Source: an uncultured bacterium
GTDB taxonomy: Bacteria > Bacillota > Clostridia > Lachnospirales > Lachnospiraceae
NCBI GenBank assembly: GCA_947243845.1
Contig: CAMXIF010000006.1
Span: 62,001 to 126,000, forward strand
Direction of reading: 5' to 3'
Length of the DNA stretch: 64,000 nt
Both the position numbers and the translations under genes were made by a program. Below, piece after piece: positions 4,258 to 59,814 of the stretch (the stretch's first letter is position 1; every line of letters starts with the position of its first letter). The notes beneath the pieces are model-generated. The model made no database searches. It was not told where the DNA came from and saw only the letters and a program-made list of their open reading frames with translations.

Positions 4258-4512
4258 TCAGCTCCGATCCGGCTGCCCTGCGTTCATATCAGTATACATA
4301 TCGAGAAGGCCCACCGTTTCCGAAGCCGGTCTGCCATACATATGACAACAGGTATGGGAGACATCCTTGGCCTTCTCTTCCTTCTCATCAAAGGTAACAC
4401 TCATACGATATACTCCCTGGGAAGACTCCTGATCCAGATGCCGCATAACCTCCGCAATCATCTCCTCGTCCGCGCTTCCTGCATCAGCCATCCTGTTATT
4501 ATCTATATCCAT
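4258..4512 (-). CDS. Small uncharacterised acidic protein
   Basis: The 84-residue protein has no recognised domain. It is acidic at the start (residues 1-40). The middle contains [13 protein letters not shown] followed by a Cys-Cys-His cluster ([11 protein letters not shown]) and then [12 protein letters not shown]. The Cys/His cluster could bind a metal, but that is inference. The ATG at 4512 is preferred to GTG at 4524 because GAGGGTGAAT precedes it. It lies between the uncharacterised membrane protein gene and mtnA, all in one direction, 31 bp from mtnA, so it could be cotranscribed with either. Confidence 0.6.
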
Positions 4513-4629
4513 ATTCACCCTCACTTCCCGGTTTCTTTTTGATGCCGCTCTTCCATATCAGTTCCTCTGCATGTTTGTCTACATCATTTCTTTCACAGCC
4601 GAACAGCCTGTCAGACCATTCCCCTATCT

Positions 4630-6255
4630 CTACCACATCATATCCAGAAGGCTGCCATATTCCTCATCAATCCTGTCAAGGATCTCGTACCAGTCCTCCT
4701 CTGTCATCTGAAAAAATGCTTTCCTCGCCTTTGCCGAACGCCTGATTTCGCCACGGAGCGGTTCCACCATGATATCGCCGCTTAGCTTGAAGAGTTCTTC
4801 TCCATCCAATTCCAGAGAAAATTCTTCCAGATCCATCTCATATCCACACCCCGGCCTGATATTGTCAAATCGTCCATTCCCATAGATATTACAGACTGTC
4901 CAGTCATCTTTCATGGAAAAGTTCATCACAAATTCATCATAGACGGCATCATAAGTACCCTTATACTTCAAATTCATTTCCTCGTCCATGGCTTTGCACT
5001 TCATATCCGCTTCCACCTGGTATTCATCCCCGGCCGAATCGATCCACTGATCCACCTGCCAAACAATTTCCAGATTTTCATCACCATCATATCTTGTAAA
5101 TGTAATTTCTCCCTGAAGCAGATCGATACTTCTCTTTTGCCCGTTAAAAAGAATCTCTCCCTCCATCTTAATCTGGTTATCCAGAATACTGACTGGATCT
5201 TCCAGTACAATCCGCCTGATCACTCCCTTCTGATCGATCTTAATCAATAGACTGATATCATCACCCATGCTGACTAACTGCAGACAGGACATCAGATCAT
5301 ACATGTCCTGGCCTGTCATATCCTCATAGGCCTGCAAAAGATCCCGCAGCAGATAATTGACTTCCAGCGCATCAAAAGTAACCCGATAGATTCCTTTTCC
5401 GGCTCTTTCTAGCCTGGCATCTGTAAGACAGGTTTCCAGATGTTCGGAACTTTTACCCAGATATTCCCTTACATCCTGCCAGCTGTGTACGGACTCATAC
5501 TGCGGGATGTCAGCAAACAAATCTATGGAATACTCTTCCTCCATTTCCCCAAACAGATAGGAATCTGCCCACATGGACTTGTTATACTGTCCCGTCACAT
5601 CCTCCGTCTCAATATAAACATCTTCCAAAAACAATTCCGGAATGGAAAAACACAGTGCATCCTCATCCCCATAGAGATTGAAATGCGCAAATTCATAGTT
5701 CATTACGCTTAAACTGGTTCTGGCATCCAGTTCTTTGTGCCGCACATCCTTCTGGTAATCCGTATCGATTCCCAGCGTAACACTTCCCATTCCATAAGTA
5801 TCCATAGCAAAGTTCAGTCTGGTCTTGACGTGACTGCCATCCTCTGCCATCATCCGTTTAAGCTCATCCGCATCCAGTTTCTCCGACAAAGGATTGCGCA
5901 TCTGTGCCCATTCCTTGTCCATATTCTCAAAGCCCTTCCTGATCTTGTAAACAGGAGCGTTCCTATGTGCAAGGTATCCGGCGCCAATACAAATTAGAAG
6001 AAGAGCCAACACCACGCCCAGCGCAATAAAAATCCCTTTCTTACGCTTCTTCTCCTGTGGCAGATATGGCTGTACCGGCGGTCCGAAGGAACTGATCTTA
6101 TCCGCCATACTCTGTTCCGGCTGCTTCTGCTCCTCACACAAGGTATTCTGTACACCGTAAGTAGTATTTATCTGGGGCAGACTCCGTTTGCCATAAGTAT
6201 TGTCCCACTGTGGTTTGTTCTCCATTTCATTCTGATTCCTTCCAGTTCCGTCCAT
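4630..6255 (-). CDS. Single-pass membrane protein with large extracytoplasmic domain
   Basis: I do not recognise the family. The 541-residue protein has a polar N-terminal region rich in Asn, Gln and Pro (1-66), then KKRKK and one hydrophobic helix (about 74-95). This predicts a type II topology with about 440 residues outside. The outer part is acidic and rich in alternating aromatic and charged residues, suggestive of beta-sheet. There are no sortase, lipobox or catalytic motifs. GGAGGGGCT precedes the ATG. The gene stands alone between the etfA terminator and the small acidic gene. A role at the cell surface is inferred only from topology. Confidence 0.75.
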   Translation of the reverse strand: MDGTGRNQNEMENKPQWDNTYGKRSLPQINTTYGVQNTLCEEQKQPEQSMADKISSFGPPVQPYLPQEKKRKKGIFIALGVVLALLLICIGAGYLAHRNAPVYKIRKGFENMDKEWAQMRNPLSEKLDADELKRMMAEDGSHVKTRLNFAMDTYGMGSVTLGIDTDYQKDVRHKELDARTSLSVMNYEFAHFNLYGDEDALCFSIPELFLEDVYIETEDVTGQYNKSMWADSYLFGEMEEEYSIDLFADIPQYESVHSWQDVREYLGKSSEHLETCLTDARLERAGKGIYRVTFDALEVNYLLRDLLQAYEDMTGQDMYDLMSCLQLVSMGDDISLLIKIDQKGVIRRIVLEDPVSILDNQIKMEGEILFNGQKRSIDLLQGEITFTRYDGDENLEIVWQVDQWIDSAGDEYQVEADMKCKAMDEEMNLKYKGTYDAVYDEFVMNFSMKDDWTVCNIYGNGRFDNIRPGCGYEMDLEEFSLELDGEELFKLSGDIMVEPLRGEIRRSAKARKAFFQMTEEDWYEILDRIDEEYGSLLDMMW

Positions 6256-6436
6256 AGCCCCTCCATTTCACAAACCATCCTCTTCACTGCCTTAGATTCC
6301 ATTTCTCTTTCATAGTAACATATTCCACGCAAAAACGGAATGGCAAAACCCAAAATCACTATTCTATATTGGCGAAAGAATTACCTATCGCCTCAACAAA
6401 AGATGCGTGGTTTTTCCAAATATCCTTATGTTAACA

Positions 6437-6480
6437 AAGCCTCCGCACAAATGACCAATAGATCATAAATGCGAAGGCTT
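6437..6480 (-). terminator. Terminator of the butyryl-CoA operon
   Basis: On the minus strand AAGCCTTCGCA and TGCGGAGGCTT pair (one mismatch) around a 22-nt loop and are followed by TGTTAAC. It begins 26 nt after the etfA stop codon. The T-run is short, so termination may be partial. Confidence 0.6.
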
Positions 6481-6505
6481 TATTCATTCCTGTTAGATAA
6501 AAATT

Positions 6506-7552
6506 TTATTTAGATGCTGCAATCTCAGCTTTCAAAGCCTCTGTCAGCTTGGGCACGATCTTGTTCAGGTCACCCACTACGCCGTAGTCAGCCACATCAA
6601 AGATCGGCGCATCCGCATCCTTGTTGATCGCAACAATGATGTCGGACTCTTCCATACCTGCCACGTGCTGGATTGCACCGGAGATACCGATTGCAAAATA
6701 TACGTTAGGACGAACAGTCTTACCTGTCTGACCAACCTGCAGATCCTTGGGCTTCCAGCCGGAATCCACCACTGCACGGGAACAGCTTACGGTACCGCCA
6801 AGTACCTCTGCCAGATCTTCCAGAATCTTGAAGTTCTCCGGGCTTCCTACGCCACGGCCGCCGGATACCAGAATCTTAGCATCCATGATATCAACGGTCT
6901 CAGCCACTGATTTCACGATATCAAGAATCTCTACATATTTGTTATCCGGTGTAAATCCGGGATTGAACTCCTCCACAACAGCCTTTGCGCCCTTGATTGG
7001 AGCAATCTTCTGCATAACGCCTGCACGTACGGTAGCCATCTGCGGACGGTTGTAAGGACATGCGATGGTAGCGATGGTGTTACCGCCGAAAGCGGGACGC
7101 GTCATCAGAAGCTGATTATGCAGCTGCTCCTGTCCCGGCACTGCCTGTAACGGGAAATCACCAATCTCCAGAACGGTACAGTCTGCTGTCAGACCGGTAG
7201 CCACTCTTGCGGATACTCTCGGGCCTAAATCCCTGCCGATTGCGGTAGCGCCTACCAGCATGATCTCAGGCTTATACTGGTTGATTACGGAAGAGAGCGC
7301 ATGTGCATAGGGCTCTGTTCTGTAATCCTTCAATTCGGGATCGTCCACTACGATAACTTTATCTGCACCATACTCAGCGAGCTGATCAGCAAGGTCTTTC
7401 ACACCGGAACCGATCAACACAGCTGTAACATCTGTACTTAAATCTTTCGCGAGGTCTTTTGCTTTGCCAAGTAATTCGAATGCAATACTGCTGATTTCAT
7501 TATCTACCTGCTGCGCAAAGACATATACACCCTTGTATTCTTCTAAATTCAT
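6506..7552 (-). CDS. etfA: Electron transfer flavoprotein, alpha subunit
   Basis: EtfA (348 residues) forms the FAD-containing heterodimer with EtfB and exchanges electrons with butyryl-CoA dehydrogenase. The C-terminal FAD-domain signature is complete: [20 protein letters not shown], then [24 protein letters not shown]. In anaerobic butyrate formers Bcd-EtfAB couples crotonyl-CoA reduction to ferredoxin reduction by flavin-based bifurcation; the operon context suggests this here. It is the last gene of the operon and lies 117 bp from etfB across a palindromic gap (7600-7670). Confidence 0.95.
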
Positions 7553-7597
7553 TTTTTACCTCATTTCTGCGCACTCGTTTTACGCGTATTCTTTTAA

Positions 7598-7674
7598 GTT
7601 CAGTTTAACTCAAATCATTGTTCAGCACGCGCCATGATTTGCCTGCAAAATTCTTTCTGGCTGAACTGTCTAGA
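7598..7674. repeat. Nested palindrome between etfB and etfA
   Basis: An outer pair AGTTCAG/CTGAACT encloses an inner pair CAAATCAT/ATGATTTG. The structure fills the gap between the two subunit genes. It has no T-run, so it is not an obvious terminator; RNA processing or stabilisation is possible. Confidence 0.5.
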
Positions 7675-8452
7675 TTACATGTTTCACTTTTAACTTGTCA
7701 ACAATATAGCTTACGGATTCATCAGGATCGAGAGTCACTTTCTCGCCGGCACCTTTTCTAACTTTATCAGATGCCTTGGCAATCTTGGTCGGTGAACCTT
7801 TCAGTCCTAAGTTCGCATCGTCCACGTCCTTCAAGTCTGCTCTGCCCCATACGGTAATCTCCTGCTTGTAAGCATCAAAGATTCCGCCGGGTGTCATGTA
7901 TCTGGGCTCATTTAACTCGGAAAGCGCCGTGATCAGGCAAGGCATCTTAGCCTTAACCACATGGTATCTATCCTCATACTGACGCTCAACCACTACGCTG
8001 TCGCCCTCAATCTTGATATCCTGTGCATAAGAGATTACCGGAATGTCAAGATGCTCGGAAATCTGAGGACCTACCTGCGCGGTATCGCCATCGATAGCCT
8101 GACGGCCTGTGATGATCAGATCATATTCCAGATTTCTGATCGCACCTGCAAGCGTGGTGGAGGTTGCCCAGGTATCAGCACCGCCAAGAACTCTGTCTGT
8201 TACGAGAACGCCCTTGTCCGCACCCATAGCCATAGCCTCGCGCAGAACTTCTTCTGCTTTGGGAAGACCCATTGTTACAACTGTTACTTCTGCACCATAC
8301 TGATCCTTTAATCTGAGTGCAGCTTCCAGACCTGCTTTATCATCCGGGTTCATGATCGTAAGCATAGCGCCTCTGTCGAGTGTTCCGTCAGGATTAAACT
8401 TAACGCCGCCCTTGGTATCAGGAACCTGTTTAATACAAACAACAATTTTCAT
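7670..8452 (-). CDS. etfB: Electron transfer flavoprotein, beta subunit
   Basis: EtfB (260 residues, usual length) is the partner of EtfA. The start MKIVVCIKQVPDTKG and the motifs IMNPDDKAGLEAALRLKD, VLREAMAMGADKG and ITGRQAIDGDTAQVGPQ are those of the EtfB family, including the loop that binds the second flavin in bifurcating Etfs. It lies downstream of bcd across a gap holding a terminator-like hairpin (8511-8534) and a second palindrome, which could lower etfBA transcription relative to bcd. Confidence 0.95.
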   Translation of the reverse strand: MKIVVCIKQVPDTKGGVKFNPDGTLDRGAMLTIMNPDDKAGLEAALRLKDQYGAEVTVVTMGLPKAEEVLREAMAMGADKGVLVTDRVLGGADTWATSTTLAGAIRNLEYDLIITGRQAIDGDTAQVGPQISEHLDIPVISYAQDIKIEGDSVVVERQYEDRYHVVKAKMPCLITALSELNEPRYMTPGGIFDAYKQEITVWGRADLKDVDDANLGLKGSPTKIAKASDKVRKGAGEKVTLDPDESVSYIVDKLKVKHVI

Positions 8453-8510
8453 TGTATTTCTCTCCTTATATTTTTTAATTTATTGTAATATAACACAGCT
8501 AATCTGCCGG

Positions 8511-8534
8511 AAAAATACCTGCTTTTCAGGTATT
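8511..8534 (-). terminator. Terminator-like hairpin inside the operon, before etfB
   Basis: On the minus strand AATACCTG and CAGGTATT form a perfect 8-bp stem with a 5-nt loop, followed by TTTTT. It lies between bcd and etfB, so complete termination would separate etfBA from the rest. Partial read-through is the likeliest reading. Confidence 0.5.
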
Positions 8535-8550
8535 CTTCAGCGCGAAACAT

Positions 8551-8596
8551 AGAAGTTCTTGGCGAAACGCCATCTGGCGTGAGTCTTAGAACTTCT
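8551..8596. repeat. Palindrome between bcd and etfB
   Basis: AGAAGTTCT pairs with AGAACTTCT, and an inner ACGCC/GGCGT pair gives a second stem. The form resembles the other intercistronic hairpins in this window (11705-11752, 52321-52355). Confidence 0.5.
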
Positions 8597-8606
8597 CTTC
8601 ACGCAC

Positions 8607-9758
8607 TTACTTAAGCAGTGCACCGGAGATGACCATCCGCTGTACTTCGCTGGTGCCTTCGTAGATCTCTGTGATCTTAGCATCACGCATCATACGCTCT
8701 ACATCGTACTCTCTGATGTAGCCGTAACCGCCGTGTAACTGTACAGCCTTGGTTGTTACTTCCATAGCTACTTCTGCAGCATATAATTTCGCCTTGGCAG
8801 CTTCCACGGAATACACCTTCTGGGTAGCTTTTGCCATAGCAGCCTTATATACCAGAAGCTGCGCAGCCTCTACCTTGGTAGCCATGTCTGCAAGCTGGAA
8901 CTGTGTGTTCTGGAAAGCGCCGATTGCTCTGCCGAACTGCTTTCTCTCTTTTACATATGCGATGGTGGTCTCTAATGCGCCTTCAGCCAGACCCAAAGCC
9001 TGGGAAGCGATACCAATACGGCCGCCGTCCAGTGTATGCATGGCGATATTAAAGCCCTTACCCTGCTGTCCTAAAAGATTCTCTTTCGGGATATGGCAGT
9101 CTGTAAAGATCAGCTCATAGGTGGATGAACCGCGGATACCCATCTTCTTCTCTTTGGTACCGAAAGTAAAGCCGGGTGTTCCTTTTTCCACGATAAATGC
9201 GGAAATTTCTTTCTGCAATCTGCCGCGCTTCTCAACCGTACCTGTGATCGCGAAGATAACATATACGTCAGCCTCTTTACCATTGGTGATGAAGCACTTG
9301 GAACCATTCAGAATCCACTCATCGCCCTCAAGCACTGCCTTAGTCTGCTGTCCCTGTGCATCTGTACCTGCGCCGGGCTCTGTCAGACCGAAAGCGCCAA
9401 GCTTCTCACCTTTTGCAAGGGGTACTAAATATTTCTGTTTCTGCTCTTCCGTACCGTAAGTCATAATCGGATCACAGCACAGAGATGTATGCGCGGAAAC
9501 GATAACGCCTGTGGTGCCGCATACCTTGGAAAGTTCCTCTACACACATAGCATATGTAAGAGGATCACAGCCCTGTCCGCCATACTCCTTGGGAACCGGA
9601 ATACCGAGAAAGCCTAATTTTGCCATCTTCTCAACGGTCTGCCTCGGAAAAGCCTCTGTCTCATCCACTTCCTGAGCGAGAGGTTTTACTTCTTTTTCAG
9701 CGAACTCTTTAAAAAGAGCTCTCGCCATTTCATGTTCTTTGCTTAAAGTAAAATCCAT
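8607..9758 (-). CDS. bcd: Butyryl-CoA dehydrogenase (short-chain acyl-CoA dehydrogenase)
   Basis: The protein (383 residues) reduces crotonyl-CoA to butyryl-CoA with electrons from EtfAB. It shows the acyl-CoA dehydrogenase order: N-terminal helical domain, FGLTEPGAGTDAQG and WILNGSKCFITNG in the middle beta domain, then RKQFGRAIGAFQ, QLHGGYGYIREYDVERMMRD and YEGTSEVQRMVI with the catalytic Glu in YEGTSE. Its place between hbd and etfB assigns the substrate better than the sequence alone does. It is cytoplasmic with FAD bound. Confidence 0.93.
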   Translation of the reverse strand: MDFTLSKEHEMARALFKEFAEKEVKPLAQEVDETEAFPRQTVEKMAKLGFLGIPVPKEYGGQGCDPLTYAMCVEELSKVCGTTGVIVSAHTSLCCDPIMTYGTEEQKQKYLVPLAKGEKLGAFGLTEPGAGTDAQGQQTKAVLEGDEWILNGSKCFITNGKEADVYVIFAITGTVEKRGRLQKEISAFIVEKGTPGFTFGTKEKKMGIRGSSTYELIFTDCHIPKENLLGQQGKGFNIAMHTLDGGRIGIASQALGLAEGALETTIAYVKERKQFGRAIGAFQNTQFQLADMATKVEAAQLLVYKAAMAKATQKVYSVEAAKAKLYAAEVAMEVTTKAVQLHGGYGYIREYDVERMMRDAKITEIYEGTSEVQRMVISGALLK

Positions 9759-9786
9759 GATTTCTTATTCCTCCATGTTTTATATT

Positions 9787-9898
9787 GTAGTCTGCTTGTA
9801 TCAAGATAAGCAGACTCAAAATGCTTCGCATTTTTCGTGCGCGTTGCACCTTCAAACAGCACAAAGAAATGATTCCTGCCTGCAGGCATTCAGAATCC
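9787..9898. repeat. Two hairpins between hbd and bcd
   Basis: GTCTGCTT/AAGCAGAC form one 8-bp stem (near 9791-9815). Further on, AGCACA/TGTGCT, GATTC/GAATC and a central CCTGCAGG form a long imperfect stem (near 9857-9911). Neither ends in a T-run. Confidence 0.45.
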
Positions 9899-9932
9899 TT
9901 TCTCTGTGCTATTCTCATTCTGCTTATCTCGC

Positions 9933-10772
9933 CTATTTCGAATAATCAAAGAATCCTACGCCAGTTTTTCTGCCGAGTTTCTTCTCTTCTACCATCTTCT
10001 TCAGAAGCGGCTGTGGAGCATACTTCTCATCCTTGGTCTCATTGTAAAGCACTTCCATGATAGCAAGGCAGATATCCAAACCGATCAGGTCACCTAAGTG
10101 AAGCGGTCCCATAGGATGGGATGCACCAAGCTGCATAGCCACATCGATATCCTCTGCGGAAGCGGTGCCTGCGTCAAGCACACCAATCGCTTCGTTGATC
10201 ATCGGGATCAGGATTCTGTTTACCACGAAACCGGGCGCTTCCTTAACCTGTACAGGTGTCTTGCCAATCTCTGTAGCGATAGCAGTAATCTTATCTACCA
10301 TCTCCTGAGGAGTATTCTCGCCTCTGATTACCTCTACTAACTTCATTCTGTCTGCAGGATTGAAGAAGTGCATACCGATCATCGGTCTGTCAAGGCCCTC
10401 ACCAATCTTAGTGATGGAAAGAGAAGAAGTATTGGATGCGAACATGCAGTCTTTCTTCACGATACCCATCAGCTCTTTGAAAATAGCCTGCTTGATCTCC
10501 ATCTTCTCAAGCGCCACTTCCACGATCAGGTCACAGTCTGTGCAGATGCCATTCAGACCTGTTGTGATCTTGCCCATGATCTCATCAGCCTTCTCCTGGG
10601 TAATCTTTTCCTTACCTACCAGGAAATTCATGTTCTTCTGAATTTTGGCCTTGCCGCCCTCTGCATACTCTTCCTTGATATCACAGAGGCATACCTCATA
10701 ACCGTCTGTCATGGCAAATGCCTGTGCAATACCGGAACCCATGGTTCCCGCACCGATAATACCTACTTTCAT
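9933..10772 (-). CDS. hbd: 3-hydroxybutyryl-CoA dehydrogenase
   Basis: The protein (279 residues) converts acetoacetyl-CoA to 3-hydroxybutyryl-CoA with NAD(P)H. The N-terminal Rossmann motif is VGIIGAGTMGSGIAQAFA. Catalytic-region motifs follow: ASNTSSLSIT, IGMHFFNPADRMKLVEVI (His of the catalytic dyad) and KEAPGFVVNRILIPMINEA. The length is that of stand-alone clostridial Hbd rather than the fused fatty-acid oxidation enzyme. The gene lies 55 bp downstream of crt with GGAGG before its start. Confidence 0.95.
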   Translation of the reverse strand: MKVGIIGAGTMGSGIAQAFAMTDGYEVCLCDIKEEYAEGGKAKIQKNMNFLVGKEKITQEKADEIMGKITTGLNGICTDCDLIVEVALEKMEIKQAIFKELMGIVKKDCMFASNTSSLSITKIGEGLDRPMIGMHFFNPADRMKLVEVIRGENTPQEMVDKITAIATEIGKTPVQVKEAPGFVVNRILIPMINEAIGVLDAGTASAEDIDVAMQLGASHPMGPLHLGDLIGLDICLAIMEVLYNETKDEKYAPQPLLKKMVEEKKLGRKTGVGFFDYSK

Positions 10773-10827
10773 TGTGATTCCTCCTTACAATATTGTTGAT
10801 TAAATAGTTGGTTGCTTTTTACAGAAC

Positions 10828-11613
10828 TTAAGCGTTCTTAAAAGGCTCTTTTACTTTCTCTTTGTTCTTGTCGAGGAAAAATGCCATGCCGTATTTCTGA
10901 TCCTCTGTCTCGAAGCAGTCACCGAAAAGTTTCTCCTCGATCACGATCGCCTCATCCATACCAACTTCTAAGCCATCGTTGATGGCTTTCTTACAGTTGC
11001 GCACTGCGATAGGCGCATTCTTAGCAATACCTGCCGCCATCTTCTCCGCTGCTGCCATCAGTTCTGCCTGCGGATATACAGCATTTACAAGACCGATGCG
11101 AAGCGCTTCATCTGCCTTGATATTTCTTGCCGTGTAGATCATCTGTTTCGCCATGCCGGGTCCCACGATTCTGGCAAGTCTCTGTGTGCCGCCGAATCCA
11201 GGTGTAATGCCAAGGCCTACCTCAGGCTGACCAAACACTGCATTGTCGGAGCAGATCCTGATATCACAGCTCATGGAAATCTCACAGCCGCCGCCTAAAG
11301 CAAAGCCATTGACTGCTGCGATCACAGGAATGGGGAATGTCTCCAGTTTGCGGAATACATCGTTACCTTTCTTACCGAAAGCTTCGCCTTCCGCCTTGGT
11401 AAGTGTGCTCATCTCACCGATATCTGCACCAGCCACAAAGGACTTCTCGCCAGCCCCGGTCAGGATCAGGCATCTTACTTCCTGTAAATCCACACCGTCA
11501 AGAGTCTTGTCCAGTTCCTCCAGCACGGTGGAGTTTAAAGCGTTCAGCGCTTTCTCACGGTTGATGGTGATAATACCAACCTGTCCCTTAACTTCATATA
11601 ATACAAATTCCAT
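10828..11613 (-). CDS. crt: Crotonase (3-hydroxybutyryl-CoA dehydratase)
   Basis: The protein (261 residues) dehydrates 3-hydroxybutyryl-CoA to crotonyl-CoA. Crotonase-fold motifs are clear: AGADIGEMS (oxyanion hole loop), GFALGGGCEISMSCDIRI with the first catalytic Glu, and FGQPEVGLGITPGFGGTQRL with the second. It sits between thlA and hbd, the standard clostridial order. A palindrome occupies the gap to thlA. Confidence 0.94.
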   Translation of the reverse strand: MEFVLYEVKGQVGIITINREKALNALNSTVLEELDKTLDGVDLQEVRCLILTGAGEKSFVAGADIGEMSTLTKAEGEAFGKKGNDVFRKLETFPIPVIAAVNGFALGGGCEISMSCDIRICSDNAVFGQPEVGLGITPGFGGTQRLARIVGPGMAKQMIYTARNIKADEALRIGLVNAVYPQAELMAAAEKMAAGIAKNAPIAVRNCKKAINDGLEVGMDEAIVIEEKLFGDCFETEDQKYGMAFFLDKNKEKVKEPFKNA

Positions 11614-11704
11614 GTTTACTCCTATCTGTCTATTTCTATAGACACATTATGTTTTAACTCCATGCAGAGAATGACCGCCTTATGGTCATTCTCTTATACG
11701 AAGC

Positions 11705-11752
11705 TGTAGTAATTCCCAGGCAGCGTTCTTTGCTGTCTTAGAATTACTCTTC
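11705..11752. repeat. Palindrome between thlA and crt
   Basis: AGTAATTC pairs with GAATTACT and an inner CAGC/GCTG pair extends the stem around GTTCTTT. The GTTCTTT loop and the TTAGAA right arm recur in hairpins in the ribosomal operon (56391-56435). Confidence 0.5.
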
Positions 11753-11757
11753 ATATT

Positions 11758-12936
11758 TTACATCTCTACTATTGTTGCGCAGCCCATACCACCGCCGATA
11801 CACAGTGTTGCAAGACCCTTCTTAGCGCCCTTAGCTTCCATCTCATGAAGCAGCGTAACCAGAATACGTGCTCCGGAAGCGCCCACGGGATGTCCTAATG
11901 CGATAGCACCGCCGTTCGGGTTAAGCTGTTTAGCCACATCGATACCGAGTTCTTTGCCCACTGCCACGGACTGTGCTGCAAATGCCTCGTTTGCCTCGAT
12001 GATATCGAAATCTTCAATCTTATAACCAGCTTTAGCCATAGCCTTCTTGGTAGCCGGAACAGGACCGATACCCATAATCTCAGGTCTGCATCCTGCAAGC
12101 GCGCCTGCCACAAAGGTAGCCATCGGCTTAACGCCTAATTCTTTTGCCTTCTCCTCGCTCATAACAACGATCGCTGCCGCACCGTCATTGATACCGGAAG
12201 CGTTACCTGCTGTCACGAAACCGTCAGGATTGATGGTGCGAAGCTTCTGTAAGCCTTCGATGGTGGATCCCGGTCTCGGTCCTTCATCAACCTTGAACTC
12301 TACCATCTCTTTTTTCTTCTTGATCATAACCGGTACGATCTCTTTGTCAAAAGCGCCGCTCTTCTGGGCAGCTTCTGCCTTTAACTGGCTGTTTAAAGCA
12401 AACTCATCCAGTTCCTCGCGGGTCAGACCCCACTCTCTGCAGATATTGTCTGCAGTCATAATCATATGATAATCGTTGAAAGCATCCCACAATGCATCCT
12501 TGATCATGGTATCAACCAGAGTGCCATTGTTCATTCTGTAACCGTAACGGCCCTGCATAACAGCATAAGGAGCCATGGACATATTCTCCATACCGCCTGC
12601 CACTACGATATCCGCATCGCCTGCCTGAATCATCTGAGCAGCCATGTTGACACAGTTTAATCCGGAACCGCAAACCACGTTGATGGTAACTGCCGGAACT
12701 TCATTGGGAATCCCCGCCTTGATGGAAGACTGGCGGGCAACATTCTGTCCGAGACCTGCCTGGATAACGCATCCCATGTATACCTGATCGACCTGCTCAG
12801 GAGCCACACCTGCTCTGTTCAGTGCCTCCTTGATTACGATTGCACCGAGTTCCGGTGCCGGTGTGGTGCTTAAGCCACCGCCCATGGTACCAATCGCCGT
12901 ACGGCAAGCGCCCGCTAAAACAACTTTTTTTGCCAT
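11758..12936 (-). CDS. thlA: Acetyl-CoA acetyltransferase (thiolase)
   Basis: The thiolase (392 residues) condenses two acetyl-CoA to acetoacetyl-CoA, the first step of butyrate formation. The active-site Cys lies in [14 protein letters not shown]. The C-terminal His ([11 protein letters not shown]) and second Cys ([10 protein letters not shown]) complete the catalytic set. ATG at 12936 is used rather than 12951 because GGAGG precedes it by 8 nt. It is the first gene of the operon; a promoter lies at 13046-13074 and a hairpin at 12986-13005. Confidence 0.95.
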
Positions 12937-12967
12937 CTTTCTCTCCTCCATTTTTGTAATGATTATT

Positions 12968-12985
12968 TTGTGAATTTTTTATAAA
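12968..12985. promoter_or_regulatory. Possible Rex-type operator in the thlA leader
   Basis: On the minus strand TTTATAA-AAAA-TTCACAA has the spacing of a Rex site (TTGTnAA-N4-TTnACAA). The right half fits fully; the left half differs at two positions. Rex controls this operon in several clostridia. The match is weak on one side. Confidence 0.3.
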
Positions 12986-13005
12986 AAGCCCTGTTTTCAA
13001 GGCTT
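12986..13005 (-). terminator. Terminator-like hairpin in the thlA leader
   Basis: On the minus strand AAGCCTTG/CAGGGCTT form an 8-bp stem (one G-T pair) with an AAAA loop, followed by TTTATAAAAAA. It lies downstream of the thlA promoter and after the M23 stop codon (13044), so it could end M23 transcripts, attenuate thlA, or both. Confidence 0.5.
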
Positions 13006-13043
13006 GACAACGATTGTTATTTTTTTGTCATTGTCCACCGTCC

Positions 13044-13520
13044 CTATTGTATCATAGCACTATCTTTTTTGCAATCGTCTTTCTGGTAATCTTCCACCGC
13101 CGGATCACGCATCTGCACCTCCCGTTTCCACTCGCGGGAATCGCCCACTTTGACCGCCTTACTGCGGTTCCTGTAAAGGAATTTGGACAGTTCATAACAG
13201 TCAATCCAGATCTCGTTATCGCTCTCCTTCTGGGACTCGTCAAAGATAAGCTGTAACCCCCAATGTAGATGTACCGTCTCGATATTATTCACGTTTTCTT
13301 TGGTGCTGTAACCGGTGTGGCCCATATAACCGATCACATCTCCTGCGGTCACGGCATCGCCCTCCTTTAACCCCTCTGCATAAGGGTAATTCTGCCGAAG
13401 ATGGGCATAATAATAATAACGCTTCCCGTCAAAGCTGCGGATGCCGATACGCCAGCCCCCATACTGGTTCCATCCAAGGGCTTCCACATAGCCGGACTCT
13501 ACCGCAATAATAGGCGTACC
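13044..13520 (-). pseudogene. M23 (LytM-type) peptidase, C-terminal fragment separated by the element
   Basis: From the core site inward the frame reads GGTPIIAVESGYVEALGW, followed by YGGWRIGIRSFDGKRYYYYA, then GDVIGYMGHTGYS and VHLHWGLQL. The last holds the HxH zinc and catalytic motif of M23 peptidases. The first half of the enzyme, with HxxxD, is missing here and lies at 17473-18218. Upstream of the core the frame soon meets a stop (within the element), and there is no ribosome-binding site near an internal start. Joining the codons either side of the two GGTACGCC cores gives an in-frame protein. It is therefore a fragment only while the element is present. Confidence 0.88.
13046..13074 (-). 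promoter_or_regulatory. Promoter of the butyryl-CoA operon
   Basis: TTGCAA (13069-13074) and TACAAT (13046-13051) are separated by 17 bp. The promoter overlaps the last codons of the M23 gene, with about 110 nt of leader before thlA. ACGATTG/CAATCGT inverted repeats lie on either side of it. Confidence 0.6.
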
Positions 13521-13540
13521 GCCCTGTCTGCTAAACTATA
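13513..13540. promoter_or_regulatory. Left attachment site of the element
   Basis: Core GGCGTACC (13513-13520), 12-bp spacer, then the arm AAACTATA. Outward of the core is M23 coding sequence. Confidence 0.75.
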
Positions 13541-13595
13541 TAGCCGAACCCGATACGGCCTCCCAGTCACCGGCAGGACATAGCTTCCGTGGAGC

Positions 13596-13637
13596 AAAAT
13601 CGCCACAGCCCCGCCATATGCAGGGGCTGCAGCGATT
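13596..13637 (-). terminator. Terminator of the MCP gene
   Basis: AATCGC, CAGCCCC and their complements GGGGCTG, GCGATT form a long two-part stem around CATATG. On the minus strand it is followed by TTTGC. It lies about 40 nt after the MCP stop codon, inside the element. Confidence 0.65.
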
Positions 13638-13674
13638 CCTGTTCTTTCAGGCCGTCAACGCCAGATACTCTCTC

Positions 13675-15369
13675 CTATATTTCAAACCGATTCATCATCT
13701 CCACCATCGTCTCTACCTGCGCCTTCTGTTCTTCACTGACAGCAGCCGTCTCCTCCGATGTAGCCGAATTGTTATCGACAGCAGCAGAAACCTGGGTTAC
13801 ATTCTCATTTAACTCCTGCATACGCTGGGTATTCCGCTTCAGAATCTGCTCGATCTGTCCCATTTTTTCCGTAGCAGCCTTGGCATCCGTCATGACTTCG
13901 TTCATATTCGCTTCTGTCTCCTCAGCAATGGCAATACTCTTGTCCATCACAGAGACAGTAGTCTCGATCAATTCCGTTGTCCTGCCGGCCGCATTTGAGG
14001 ACTCATTGGCCAGATTCTTCACCTGCTCCGCCACCACAGCAAAACCTTTCCCGGCTTCGCCTGCTCTTGCCGCCTCAATCGCCGCATTGAGCGCCAGAAG
14101 ATTGGTCTGGGATGCAATATCCTCTATTGCCTCTATGATGGTGCCAATCTGCTCCGAACATCTGCCGATCTCCTGAATTGAGCCCTTCAGCTCCTGAAGC
14201 TTCCCATTGCCTTTTGCCAGTGTAATACCCGCTGCCGAAGCCATCTTGGCAGATTCTTCCGCCTCATGCGCGTTGTCTTCCATACTCCTGGTCATAGCAT
14301 CAAATGCGGTCATCAGTTCCGATACCTGTCCTGCCTGCAGCGTACAGTTTTCAGCCAAATCCTGTGCGGCGCATGCCAGCTGTTCCGAACCACTGTCTAT
14401 CTGACCGGAAACGTTGCGGATCGTCTTAAGGGTATCCCGCATCTTCTCCGCAATCTGCAGCAGGGAATCTTTGATGCTGATAAACTCACCCACATACTCC
14501 TGTTCAATCTCAATCCGATAATTACCATTTCCCATCTCTTCCAGGGTCTGCGTAATCTCTCTGATCATACCAAGCAGATTTTCTTTCATGAACGAGATTG
14601 CGGCAACCATACGGCCCACTTCGCTCTCATCCTCTTCCAGGTCAAGTTCCACATGAAATTCACCGCCAGCCAGCACGGCCATCTGATCCGACACTTTCTG
14701 AATCGGCTCCAAAAGTTCCTTTTCAGAGAACCTGATCGTCCTGATAAACTCTTTCACAACATACAGGAAAGAGAGTGCAAACAGAATTTCAAATAGATAC
14801 TGTAAAACCTTCAGACCTGCCTGTCTGCTGTCCTTCCTCTCAAGGATGGCAAGGATTGTCTCATCCGTCTGTTGACTGATTTTATCCACCGAATCACCAT
14901 ATTGTGCGCTGAACACACACGCCTGTGCGGCTGCCAGATCCCCGGCCTTCACATGTGAGATCGCTTCCTCCTCCAATGGCACAAGCTGATTCGACATCTC
15001 CGCAATCTGATTCAAGCTTGTCCATTCTTCTTCCTTGAGACTGCATTTCTTTAACATCTCAAGTGCCTGCTCCCGATTCCTGTCCTCATTCAGTTCCTTC
15101 ATATAGCCATCATAGTATTTCTGTTCCCCTGTGACGGCATAAGACTGAATGTCATACGTCAATGTCTTGGATGCGGCCCGGTATTGATTCAGCGCCACAG
15201 TCGTATTGACCTGTGCACTGTTTAGCCTCGACATAGCCACATTAAACAAGATGAAGCCAAGCAGCAGCACGGCTCCTGTTACAACTGACACCAGCGCCTG
15301 GTTGACCAGCTTCTTTAACTGCGCAGCCTGGCTCTTTTTCCCCGATACCTCATTCTTTTTTGTTCCCAT
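13675..15369 (-). CDS. Methyl-accepting chemotaxis protein carried by the element
   Basis: The protein (564 residues) is a transmembrane chemoreceptor. TM1 lies at about 25-45, followed by a helical ligand-binding region of about 140 residues resembling the 4-helix-bundle type. TM2 is near 187-206 ([17 protein letters not shown]), then HAMP and a long coiled-coil signalling domain. The hairpin tip that binds CheA/CheW reads [20 protein letters not shown] followed by [18 protein letters not shown]. The start at 15369 has GAGAGGGC upstream. It has its own promoter (15433-15461) and terminator, so it can be expressed apart from the recombinase. No other chemotaxis gene is in the window. Its presence as cargo of a recombinase element is unusual. 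Confidence 0.93.
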
Positions 15370-15432
15370 AAGCCCTCTCCCAATCAAAACATATCTTTTC
15401 GCTCACCCCGTTACAACTATGCTGTTATAAAA

Positions 15433-15461
15433 AGTATAGCTGAAATGACTCGCGTTTTCAA
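15433..15461 (-). promoter_or_regulatory. Promoter of the MCP gene
   Basis: TTGAAA (15456-15461), 17 bp, TATACT (15433-15438). It lies between the recombinase and the MCP gene. It resembles a housekeeping-sigma promoter, not the sigma-28 form often used for chemoreceptors. Confidence 0.65.
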
Positions 15462-15479
15462 TAACTTATTCCTCTTTTT

Positions 15480-17225
15480 TCATCCATTGTACATGTTATG
15501 GCTCTTTTCCACCGCGGGAAAGAAACTATTCCTATCCACCTTAAGATAAATATCTATTTCCGTTTCCGTAACCACGACAGTTTCGATGAGCATGGACAAC
15601 AGTTTTTTCCTGACATTTAACGGCGCCCCCGCAAATACATCCCGCCAAACCGGCAGCGCTTTCGTAGTCCGCAAACATTCTTCCGCCGCAAGTTGTTTTC
15701 CCTGCATACGATGCTCCAGGATATCCGCTTCCTGCCTGATTTCCCTCGCTTTATCTTCTGCCGTTCTCAGACATTCATTAAGATATTTATGATCAAACTC
15801 ACTTTCCCCGATGACTGCCCTGTATATTTCCTCTTTGAACTTTGCCATATGCTCCTGTACTTTCCGATATTCTCTATGTAAAGAAACCAGTCTTTTACTC
15901 TCTGCATCTGCTTCTTCCAAGAATTGCCTCTGCTGATTCATCATGATAGGAAAGCCGTCTGCATGCTCCAGACGATCCCAAAAAAGATTCATCTCTTCTA
16001 AGACCGCTGTTTCCAGCCGGTATCTGCTGATATATGATTTTGCAGGACAAAGTCGCTTATCCCGCCCTCTTGTATTGCATTTATAAAACTCTGTGCGGCT
16101 TATCGTTATAGAACTGTCCTTTTTGCACGTTTTTTGAGAAGATACCGCAGGCGATAATTTCCCGTGGCAGTACCCGCACTCTGCTAATCCGGTCAGCAGC
16201 AGCGTACTTTTCCAGGTTCTGTCAGTAATCTTGTGTGTTGTATCCGTATGCTTTTTATACCTTCTCTCCAGGATTTCCTGCGCCAGCTGCCAGCGCTTTT
16301 CGCTGACAATCACATAATCCGGATTGGCTTCCTGCGCTAAGATCCACTGATCGGCTGAAACAGCCCGCTGTCTTTTGGGCGCATCCAGAAAGGCTTCTCT
16401 GGTAACTTCTTTGTGCGGCTCCCTTTGCACCTCTTTCATTCTGGTCTTTCCATATGACATATAGCCCTTATACAAGGGATTTTTGAGCATATTTCGTATC
16501 GTTGAAGGATTCCACAGCTTTCCCTTTCTGGTTCTAAGCTGCCTGTCCTCATTGAGATACGCCGCTATTTCATGTAAACTCATGTTGTCATCTATCAATC
16601 TGTCATAAATATCCTGCACTACCCCGCTTTCAAATGCATCTTTTGTAAAAGCATTTATCATGCGGTTTTTTCTGTCCAGCTTCCCTGTGGCCTCCAACCG
16701 GTATCCATATGCAACTGTGCCGCCTGTAAACCGCCCCATTTTAGTGGCATAATTCCTGCCGCTGTCCACTCTCACAGCTGTTTTTCTGCTCTCCGTATTC
16801 GCACCCCAGAATCTGATGATATTCATCAGATTATCGGAGGCGTTTTCAAAAGTCTGCTGCCCTTCACAGACACTCCACACTTCTACCCCGCATTCCACAA
16901 TCCGTTTTAAGAGAAACGGCGTCTCATTATCTTTTCTGCCAATACGATCAAACATAAATACAAGGAGGACGTCTATCCTGTGCTCCCCCACATCTTGAAT
17001 GACCTCCTGCAGAACCTTTCTGTCATTCAGTCCTTTATGATAACCGGAAACGCCAGGTTCCAGATATTCTCTGGTCAATTCCCAGTCCGCCTTATTCTCA
17101 ATGTATTCCATACAGGCATTTCTCTGCATGGGAATATCTTCTTCCACATTCACCTGCTTGCGGGTGCTGACTCTATACAGGCATCCTACCCGCTTTTTGG
17201 CTAATTCACTTCTCCCCTGACCCAA
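15480..17225 (-). CDS. Large serine recombinase (integrase)
   Basis: The 581-residue protein has a resolvase/invertase catalytic domain with nucleophile Ser20 in LYRVSTRKQ and the arginines of LLVFMFDRIGR. The recombinase domain follows (GTVAYGYR, LNEDRQLRTRKGKLWNPSTI, ILKN-type MLKNPLYKGYMSYGK). A zinc ribbon has Cys pairs at ECGYCHG and CNTRGRDKRLCPAKS, and a coiled coil follows (VSLHREYRKVQEHMAKFKEE). All parts needed for activity appear intact. The start is TTG at 17225 with GGAGAGGGGC before it, overlapping the small upstream ORF by 20 bp, so translation is probably coupled. By position it catalyses integration and excision of the element. Confidence 0.93.
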   Translation of the reverse strand: MGQGRSELAKKRVGCLYRVSTRKQVNVEEDIPMQRNACMEYIENKADWELTREYLEPGVSGYHKGLNDRKVLQEVIQDVGEHRIDVLLVFMFDRIGRKDNETPFLLKRIVECGVEVWSVCEGQQTFENASDNLMNIIRFWGANTESRKTAVRVDSGRNYATKMGRFTGGTVAYGYRLEATGKLDRKNRMINAFTKDAFESGVVQDIYDRLIDDNMSLHEIAAYLNEDRQLRTRKGKLWNPSTIRNMLKNPLYKGYMSYGKTRMKEVQREPHKEVTREAFLDAPKRQRAVSADQWILAQEANPDYVIVSEKRWQLAQEILERRYKKHTDTTHKITDRTWKSTLLLTGLAECGYCHGKLSPAVSSQKTCKKDSSITISRTEFYKCNTRGRDKRLCPAKSYISRYRLETAVLEEMNLFWDRLEHADGFPIMMNQQRQFLEEADAESKRLVSLHREYRKVQEHMAKFKEEIYRAVIGESEFDHKYLNECLRTAEDKAREIRQEADILEHRMQGKQLAAEECLRTTKALPVWRDVFAGAPLNVRKKLLSMLIETVVVTETEIDIYLKVDRNSFFPAVEKSHNMYNG

Positions 17226-17412
17226 GCCCCTCTCCCCCTTTTGCCATCATATTCCTCATGTACGTCTCCATCAGAATATCCAGTATTTCCTCTACAATAC
17301 CCTGATCCGTATTGCCTTCCGTAAAATGCAGTCTGACCGTATAGTGGGTCTTAGGATTCTCTCTTCTCAATACCTGGCTGCCTTCCCAGCTGTACTCACC
17401 TGTTTTTGTCAT
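17206..17412 (-). CDS. Small accessory protein of the recombinase element
   Basis: The 68-residue protein has a central stretch (THYTVRLHFTEGNTDQGIVE, then EILDILMETYMRN) that predicts a beta strand followed by an amphipathic helix. Short ORFs with a similar VRLHF-type strand precede serine recombinases of Clostridia (TnpW-like). The function is unknown. It overlaps the recombinase start and is preceded by GAGG before the ATG. It could be a directionality factor, but that is a guess from position and size. Confidence 0.6.
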   Translation of the reverse strand: MTKTGEYSWEGSQVLRRENPKTHYTVRLHFTEGNTDQGIVEEILDILMETYMRNMMAKGGEGLGSGEK

Positions 17413-17452
17413 AATGCCTCAAATTGCTTTTTGTACATTTCTATGCTCTGTT

Positions 17453-17480
17453 TATAGTTTTATGCGCACCTTGGCGTACC
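17453..17480. promoter_or_regulatory. Right attachment site of the element
   Basis: Arm TATAGTTT (17453-17460), 12-bp spacer, core GGCGTACC (17473-17480). It is the mirror image of the left site. Outward of the core is the N-terminal half of the M23 gene. Confidence 0.75.
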
Positions 17481-18218
17481 AATCATTCCCATCATGTCAT
17501 GCCCCAGATGGGGCCTTCTGTAGCCATAGCTGCGGGAAGAGCCAAAGTCATCATAATGACTGTAATCAAAACCGGCGGCTATCGGAGAAAAAGCCTTCAA
17601 TCCATAATAGCGGTGCCATGTCTGACCCGCTGTTCCTGTCTCCCTTTCTGCTTGTACGCCTTCCTCTTTCCCTGTCTCCTCAGAAAGAGCAAACTCCCCC
17701 ACCATCCCGCCAAGGACTGCCGTGTATGCTTCCAGATAATAATCGTAATATTCCATATCCCCGGTCAACTCCTCCATGGTGGTCTCTCCATTTCGCAGTT
17801 TTTCCGCAGCCTTTTGTATCTCCCGCACACTGTTTTTATCAAACTTGCCGCCATTTCTTGCACCCACGTAGGCCAATAGTTCAATCCAATTAAGATGTAT
17901 CTCCTCCTTGTAGGTCTCCACATCCAGATCATAGGCCGCCGCCATGGCTTCACAAGTCACATGAAATTCCACCCATTTGATATAATTCCCATCCGCTGTC
18001 ACCTCAATGGCCTGCCCATCTTCCGAAGTCCAGTCCATATCTTCCCCCCGCAAAGAAGCCTCCTGCCATCTGCCAAGCAATTCCCTGACAATACACACAC
18101 TGCCAAGAGCCAGCAGAAGAATCAGTTCGATCCTTATCACCGCCCTGGAAAAACCACCTCCGCCATCCGTTCTCTTTCCTTTGTCACCCCGACACTGCCT
18201 GTTCCTTTTTAACATCAT
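17460..18218 (-). pseudogene. M23 (LytM-type) peptidase, N-terminal fragment
   Basis: The fragment has a basic start, one membrane helix (about residues 26-45, AVIRIELILLLALGSVCIV), a helical region (to about 170) and then the beginning of the peptidase domain: FDYSHYDDFGSSRSYGYRRP followed by HLGHDMMGMIGTP. HLGHD is the HxxxD motif of M23 enzymes. After GTP the frame enters the element, adds three residues and stops at 17460. ATG at 18218 has a GGATGAG upstream; GTG at 18227 is also in frame. The product would lack HxH and so be inactive as a peptidase. The intact enzyme would be membrane-anchored and act on peptidoglycan cross-bridges. Confidence 0.87.
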
Positions 18219-18227
18219 GCGCTGCAC

Positions 18228-18576
18228 TCATCCGCTTTATCGTAAATAATATATGAATAGAAAGGTAGAGATATGTTCAAGAGGTATGGTATAATGTCCA
18301 CGATGGCAATGAGCAGTGCCAAATCCGGCAAAGATAAGCCGACTGCTCGCAGGCGGACTTATCTGTGCTGGATTTGATAGGGCGAAGCCCGTGAATGAGA
18401 AAAACCGAAGGTTTTTCGAGGACACTGCGGACGAAAGGCTTTTGAGCGACTGCGCAGTCGAAGGGCTTTGGCGCGACTACGCGGATGAAAGGCTTTTGCG
18501 CGGCTGCGCAGACTAATGAAAAAACCGAAGGGCCTTTCATCCGCAAATTTGAATCTATCATCAGGAGGGTATATGT
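18228..18576 (+). promoter_or_regulatory. Long structured leader before the DUF1576 gene
   Basis: No gene is seen. An extended -10 (TGGTATAAT, near 18289-18297) starts a leader of about 270 nt. It holds a long hairpin at 18320-18376 (arms AAATCC/GGATTT, AGATAAG/CTTATCT, CCG/CGG), then the small stems GGGC/GCCC and AAAAACC/GGTTTTT, then three 27-nt tandem repeats. GGAGG precedes the downstream ATG. Confidence 0.5.
18433..18513. repeat. Three tandem 27-nt repeats
   Basis: Units at 18433-18459, 18460-18486 and 18487-18513 begin GAAAGGCTTTTG or GAAGGGCTTTGG and contain GCGACTGCGCAG or a variant. The period is exactly nine codons and both strands stay open across it, but no convincing start or ribosome-binding site is present. 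Confidence 0.65.
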
Positions 18577-59576: not shown

Positions 59577-59814
59577 AAAAAAAGTCGCCTCCTTTTCGCA
59601 CTTTTAAAGCTTAAGTACGACAAGCGGTGACTGTACACTCTCCCGTGTGTGTCCTAATTGCTTACGCATCGAATCACTAACACGTCGTTTCCGGCTAACC
59701 GGACATTATGTCTGTACAGTGACTTGTCGTCAGTTTCCTAACTTGACATTCGCTCCACGGAAAACCTGCCACGAAGGCAGCAACCTCTCGCTTCATAGCT
59801 ATCATGTCACAGCA
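59577..59814 (-). promoter_or_regulatory. Structured leader of the S10 operon
   Basis: About 240 nt lie between promoter and rpsJ. A long-range stem joins ACGACAAG...ACTGTACA (59713-59730, read on the minus strand) to TGTACAGT...CTTGTCGT (59617-59637), enclosing a small hairpin TCCGG/CCGGA. Closer to the promoter TGCTGCC/GGCAG forms another. Control by L4 or another r-protein is possible; the fold does not match one I know. Confidence 0.55.

Follow-up and report, generated by a model that had tools for sequence, protein, structure and literature searches.

A chemoreceptor-carrying serine-recombinase unit splits a candidate sporulation M23 peptidase gene at an integration hot spot in Lachnospiraceae

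Introduction

Rearrangement during sporulation is on record for a small number of Bacillus and clostridial genes, namely sigK, spsM, spoVFB, gerE and yabG (PMC5595907, PMC10747680). We analyzed a 64,000-nt window of a 3.39 Mb Lachnospiraceae genome (GCA_947243845.1, contig CAMXIF010000006.1, positions 62,001 to 126,000; genome designated G000), in which a 3,960-bp unit with GGTACGCC at either end interrupts a gene for an M23 peptidase. The unit contains a small open reading frame (ORF), a large serine recombinase gene and a gene for a methyl-accepting chemotaxis protein (MCP).

The skin element in sigK of B. subtilis and C. difficile is described as having a large serine recombinase, like the window unit, and as rebuilding a mother-cell gene by precise excision (PMC5025042); the window unit differs in that its target encodes an M23 peptidase rather than a sigma factor, it has no phage genes and its recombination directionality factor (RDF) is only a candidate. 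A recombinase gene placed after the 5′ half of the split gene and in the same orientation is reported for skin of B. subtilis (spoIVCA) and for yin (PMC10747680), and is also the arrangement in the window. The gin element in gerE of B. cereus ATCC10987 is, like the window unit, a non-phage serine-recombinase unit in a sporulation gene, the gene in the window being a candidate for that class. Excision of gin, reported in sporulation, restores gerE and requires the recombinase GirC and the RDF GirX (PMC5595907). Whereas gin spans 28.6 kb and encodes three recombinases, the window unit spans 4.0 kb, encodes one recombinase and an MCP, lies in another family and gene, and is known from its sequence alone. 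SPβ is a prophage in the spore-envelope gene spsM of B. subtilis, and a form cut down to the recombinase and RDF is still excised in sporulation (PMC4191935); the window unit, in contrast, has no phage genes. Finally, yin in yabG of C. botulinum shares with the window unit a clostridial host, an RDF candidate (72 aa in yin) and a recombinase downstream of the 5′ half in similar orientation, but is prophage-like and described from one strain (PMC10747680), whereas the site of the window unit has been entered by several different elements.

Results

Architecture of the split gene and the intervening unit

The minus strand of the window reads promoter-like site, M23 N half, GGTACGCC, 68-aa ORF, recombinase, MCP, 154 bp, GGTACGCC, M23 C half and a downstream gene that we take, from its sequence, to be thl (Table 1). 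An initial annotation of this DNA had described two M23 fragments bounded by GGTACGCC, with a large serine recombinase, a small ORF and an MCP between them and a merged frame of about 407 codons, and all of these were found in our analysis. Merging the halves at GGTACGCC gave a single open frame of 407 codons, in which the Pfam Peptidase_M23 domain covers residues 239–339, across the join (59.5 bits against a cut-off of 28.7). The joined translation contains both HLGHD (HxxxD) and HLH (HxH), as an M23 peptidase should; these motifs presumably supply the metal ligands, which would then be divided between the N half and the C half. The predicted structure of the whole M23 protein was uninformative (mean pLDDT 59.5, no PDB match at E ≤ 0.001). 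The octamer GGTACGCC occurs six times in the window (1322, 13513, 17473, 25083, 35215 and 62038), always on the minus strand, with a shuffle mean of 0.52, so the octamer alone is weak evidence; the four copies outside the att sites may represent Gly-Thr-Pro codons.

The unit is host-like in G+C (0.473 vs 0.474 in nearby flanks). Its recombinase matched the Resolvase (PF00239), Recombinase (PF07508) and Zn-ribbon (PF13408) domains, all above the Pfam cut-off, and the integrase family phrog_95 of PHROGs (7e-77). RVST and DRIGR motifs are present, and the ratio of nonsynonymous to synonymous substitution rates (ω) between G000 and a second genome with the same unit, G046, was 0.16. The unit thus appears to encode an intact site-specific recombinase. 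Its best NCBIfam match was the fdxN-element recombinase XisF (NF041201, E 9e-28), by name an element-excision recombinase from a different host and gene; because the score of 97.4 bits is far below the curated cut-off of 375, the window recombinase does not belong to the XisF family.

An attP site reconstructed from the two unit ends (68 bp) has, by eye, TATAGTTT-like arms flanking the core on both sides; a 16-mer scan of viral contigs with this site gave 10 matches, which we attribute to chance. Neither phage structural or packaging genes nor conjugation or replication genes were found among the three main ORFs of the unit (small ORF, recombinase and MCP), and no plasmid record carried ≥80% of the unit in one place. 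The recombinase had no match among the viral contigs searched; 331 phage records matched it, the best by coverage and identity at 30.4%. Compared with phage proteins, the MCP matched phrog_8572 (E 1e-54) over its signalling part only. The 68-aa ORF is a candidate RDF from its place and size, and its model is a β-β-α fold of moderate confidence (mean pLDDT 72) with no PDB match at E ≤ 0.001.

The same unit in G046 and the whole gene in relatives

An assembly accident was considered and judged unlikely, and a chimera is likewise improbable, because G046 carries the same gene order, at about 93% nucleotide identity, with 90% identity in the recombinase. Within the genus, represented by one genome per species, the M23 gene is present in 73 of 77 genomes, with weak matches only in G053, G056, G070 and G071. 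It is uninterrupted in 62 of the 73, so the gene is not always split at this point: 52 carry it as a single stretch (four of them, G026, G033, G036 and G037, with one internal stop flagged) and ten show two stretches that abut and form a single open frame. The remaining 11 have it in two pieces, although in G065 the N half alone was found. The search among relatives that the initial annotation had suggested yielded both the unit, in G046, and the whole gene. G045, sister of the window genome and G046 in the M23 tree, reads GGAATGATTGGTACGCCCATTATTGCG without interruption with thl adjoining M23, and the nearest relatives at this locus (G045, G010 and G006) all have a whole M23 gene followed by thl, with no MCP between. 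The same layout would result if the unit were excised from the window, and it bears out, as an end state, the earlier proposal that one removal would restore the M23 frame and lose the MCP; it could have arisen by excision or because the unit was never present.

Different elements occupy the same site

Across the family, 113 of 397 genomes have the M23 gene (match at E ≤ 1e-30) and 284 have no such match. It is split at the same codons or within about 25 nt in 17 genomes, the 11 of the genus and six elsewhere (G098, G186, G259, G289, G322 and G351). Besides the window genome and G046, nine genus members have the gene broken at the window's codons by a different integrase. G280 looked split at first but reads as a frameshift and was not counted. 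All 17 split loci yielded recombinases from the parts that were fetched, and these sort into four groups, with about 20–30% identity from one group to another: group A comprises the window, G046 and G186 (41%); group B has eleven members, with G289 the most distant (58–59%); group C consists of G351 and G322 (49%); and group D is G098, with three tandem recombinases. An eighteenth split comes from a viral contig (IMGVR_UViG_3300035427_000129), where an M23 N half broken at this site has a B-type integrase (78%) next to it.

The elements vary in size and content. In G019, G022 and G050 the halves lie 35–41 kb apart on one contig; in the rest of the group of nine they lie on separate contigs, so element sizes could not be measured. 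The G019 element, the only one tested for phage genes, has matches to terminase, portal, major head, tape-measure and endolysin, showing that it is a prophage, to which SPβ in spsM is likely a parallel. The G351 unit (G351:C32, about 5074–7940) spans 2.9 kb, is bounded by a 14-bp repeat and has a 496-aa serine recombinase as its sole large ORF, and thus appears near-minimal. The G098 element (G098:C29, about 4440–15334) is about 11 kb, with a junction that falls among the HLGHD codons, about 25 nt upstream of where the common core lies; some of its ORFs carry repeated SGAL-SLYMWG-type motifs that look RCC1-like by eye. In G186 (G186:C13) a 6.4-kb element lies between the halves, and several of its ORFs are ATPase-like by eye, possibly defence cargo. 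For G322, whose recombinase is about 2.4 kb away from the C half, the fetched sequence omits 19 kb of the element; for G259 it omits 10 kb. The recombinase is oriented with M23 in the window, G046, G351 and G098, and opposed to it in all eleven group B members and G186.

In an M23 tree of 56 rows (16 split), the split label requires 8 changes, of which at least six fall on starred branches; shuffled labels require 14.1. This indicates several origins that are clustered. We consider it solid, as read from these genomes, that the M23 gene is a shared integration hot spot on which four distantly related recombinase groups have converged.

Both halves of the split gene are under selection

Sixteen of the 17 split M23 genes could be joined (approximately in G098); G065 was left unjoined, its C half not being in its contig. 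All but one of the 16 were free of stops, the exception being G022, with a single stop in the tail beyond the M23 domain. Between the window and G046, synonymous divergence (dS) was 0.32 for the recombinase, 0.24 for the MCP and 0.15 and 0.26 for the M23 halves, compared with 0.15 for thl and 0.27 and 0.24 for upstream genes. Since the element resembles its flanks, it is most simply as old as the split between G000 and G046 and was inherited vertically. For the same pair, ω was 0.24 for the N half (bootstrap 0.136–0.426) and 0.021 for the C half (bootstrap 0–0.065). Among 32 intact genes, 25 pairs, which are not independent, gave median values of 0.136 (0.091–0.205) and 0.062 (0–0.256) for the N and C parts, respectively. 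Purifying selection on both halves implies that the joined M23 gene is evidently used, and the simplest account would be that it is rejoined often enough to matter.

The M23 gene looks sporulation-linked

A σE-like promoter, CATATC-N14-CATATATT, precedes the M23 gene in the window and, read by eye, is nearly identical to the spoIVA promoter of another locus in our set (L213). Upstream of many M23 orthologues, CATAWC-N14-(T)CATATA can be read by eye. A broader σE-like pattern was found in 36 of 83 distinct M23 upstream regions (200 first-order resamplings: mean 0.3, maximum 3) and in 9 of 16 spoIVA upstream regions, the 16 being those anchored among 19 fetched (mean 0.1, maximum 1). In C. difficile, spoIVA is listed as σE-dependent (PMC3738446). 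SpoIVA is present in 111 of the 113 family genomes with M23, including G000, G045 and G046, against 145 of the 284 without it (one-sided Fisher p = 1.4e-23, two weak SpoIVA hits being set aside). Together, the promoter and the co-occurrence make the M23 gene look sporulation-linked. Upstream of M23 in L025, L033, L094, L103 and other loci, a −35-like CATAAC can be seen by eye in the loop of a hairpin resembling a terminator, and the T-run of this hairpin continues into the −10-like CATATA; promoter and terminator seem to overlap.

The chemoreceptor is a common resident of the locus

Of 26 loci examined, 18 have an MCP homologue (78–84% identical) placed between M23 and thl, and in an alignment of 16 relatives TTGAAA and TATACT occur in the interval from M23 to MCP. 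The window MCP has the same vegetative-type promoter, beginning just past the recombinase stop and ahead of the C half. The initial annotation had regarded the chemoreceptor as cargo; it does lie inside the unit, but we reject exotic cargo, because relatives carry the MCP beside M23 in the order M23-MCP-thl.

The end of M23 in G045 and G010, which lack the MCP at this locus, and the window C half (13044–13090) correspond to what elsewhere is the thl promoter region, and the C terminus …DDCKKDSAMIQ is common to the window and G045. As the end of M23 runs into this region, the M23 gene that was interrupted was probably already next to thl. The MCP may have been brought in by the unit or moved into it in place. 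In the MCP tree the element MCP grouped, with weak support (85/87), with G063 and a clade of G044, G048, G050, G005, G009 and G075, a position that fits both. We regard it as evenly balanced whether the ancestor of G000 and G046 gained element and MCP horizontally after its clade had lost the native MCP, with no capture in place. Horizontal gain takes the fewest steps and agrees with the MCP-less 3′ end that the window C half shares with G045 and G010; the tree position is equally expected from in-place capture and so does not decide the origin. Such a gain concerns origin and is compatible with excision in the mother cell. We infer that the MCP originated in an M23-MCP-thl neighbourhood, either in this species or in one related to it.

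Elsewhere in the window, an S10-Clostridia ribosomal protein leader (RF03136) lies at 59724–59804.

Table 1 Features of the split M23 locus, in coordinates of the window
Feature	Position	Strand	Remarks
thl (acetyl-CoA acetyltransferase)	11758..12951	-	Downstream neighbour fixing the locus
C half of M23 gene	13044..13520	-	HLH motif; begins GTPIIAVES
attR core GGTACGCC	13513..13520	-	
Unit right end (attP arm side), MCP stop to attR core	13521..13674	-	
MCP, 570 aa	13675..15387	-	HAMP and MCPsignal (Pfam)
σA-type promoter of MCP, TTGAAA-N17-TATACT	15433..15461	-	Within the unit, as is the MCP
Large serine recombinase, 581 aa, three domains	15480..17225	-	
Small ORF, 68 aa	17206..17412	-	Candidate RDF, from place and size only
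attL core GGTACGCC	17473..17480	-	
N half of M23 peptidase gene	17473..18227	-	Hydrophobic N-terminal segment, HLGHD motif; ends HLGHDMMGMIGTP
σE-like promoter of M23, CATATC-N14-CATATA	18250..18275 (C6:80250-80275)	-	Pattern in own genome; conserved in relatives; spoIVA-like layout

Discussion

We lean towards the view that the window unit is a skin- or gin-like gene-intervening element excised in the sporulating mother cell. Precise attL × attR recombination would restore M23 and remove the MCP together. In the sporulating mother cell, M23 would be transcribed from the σE-like promoter, and read-through past the short tail of the N half could reach the co-oriented 68-aa ORF, a possible RDF, and the recombinase, which would then excise the unit. 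The whole M23 peptidase could then be made and remodel the peptidoglycan of the spore, possibly in the manner of LytH of B. subtilis. LytH (YunA) is an M23 protein described as made only in sporulation and acting on the spore cortex (PMC9662197), and is a candidate functional analogue, the likeness being one of analogy rather than of sequence comparison. The spore chromosome would retain the unit, and the MCP, from its own vegetative-type promoter, would serve the growing cell. The skin-type arrangement proposed in the initial annotation thus holds as an analogy, supported by the promoter, the SpoIVA co-occurrence and the selection on both halves.

Several points weigh against this view. Excision, its timing and its cell type are what we infer from sequence. 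An RDF was not recognised in the unit: the 68-aa ORF had no match in Pfam, NCBIfam, PHROGs or phages, and it is the least constrained gene (ω 0.49 on 68 codons). The vertical descent of the unit derives from a single species pair (G000/G046), in which N-half ω exceeds that of all 25 intact pairs (maximum 0.205), with overlapping intervals. The broader promoter pattern missed 47 of 83 M23 and 7 of 16 spoIVA upstream regions, including the genome's own spoIVA, which reads TATAGC-N14-CATATACA by eye, and the strict pattern finds 3 places in the genome, its control 1. The co-occurrence test takes no account of phylogeny, and there are exceptions both ways: M23 occurs without SpoIVA in G238 and G283, and SpoIVA without M23 in G070 and G071 (81% complete). 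Because the recombinases of group B and G186 face the other way, read-through cannot serve as the mechanism in general.

Large serine integrases often target conserved coding sequence, and the unit could be an ordinary site-specific insertion that inactivated a dispensable gene, with excision rare and unregulated and the gene lost in carriers. The many family genomes with no M23 match and the raised N-half ω agree with such an insertion, but the purifying selection on both halves in the window and G046 and the stop-free frames of 15 of 16 joined genes make it unlikely. Alternatively, a reversible switch in growing cells, in the style of active lysogeny or phase variation and with no tie to sporulation, would leave a fraction of cells excised, M23-on/MCP-off against M23-off/MCP-on. 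The unit does couple M23 and MCP in opposite senses, the MCP promoter is σA-type, and yin is reported in both states at all time points (PMC10747680), but excision of gin and of C. difficile skin is described as RDF-dependent (PMC5595907, PMC5025042). The σE-like M23 promoter and the SpoIVA co-occurrence also argue against a switch, and we consider it quite improbable. That the halves act as separate polypeptides is hardly credible: both are conserved, and in G046 the frame of the C half stays open over the 135 nt before the core and includes GTG and TTG codons, but the presumed metal ligands are divided between the halves, and the window C half, open just 15 nt upstream of the core and with a GTG at +33 as the sole start codon in its first 90 nt, seems to lack a convincing start of its own.

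With mother-cell excision of the window unit as the favored reading, a wider one can be framed for the family. The M23 gene may be a standing hot spot of developmental rearrangement on a par with sigK. The elements that split it, at the same codons or close to them, belong to four distantly related recombinase groups and range from a 2.9 kb unit holding a single main gene up to a complete prophage; they would be excised as the mother cell is dying, and in the window the same event would remove a native-type chemoreceptor of growing cells. The hot spot with selected halves is solid; the developmental step is proposed, and for the whole we put the case for and the case against about level.

The initial annotation knew of no described element of this kind, which was too strong, since skin, SPβ in spsM, vfbin, gin and yin are elements of the same kind in other genes and an MCP-like phage family exists (phrog_8572). 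No paper on this combination was found among the open-licence articles searched, an absence that is weak evidence. Relative to known elements, the differences lie in the gene and host family, in how many different elements share one spot and in the receptor that is enclosed.

For gut Lachnospiraceae, these results add a candidate rearranged gene, split in 11 of the 73 genus genomes that carry M23, and they make it testable why elements settle in mother-cell genes. In the window unit, a gene of the locus ended up inside a mobile unit, so that the receptor and the whole peptidase gene would be mutually exclusive on one chromosome.

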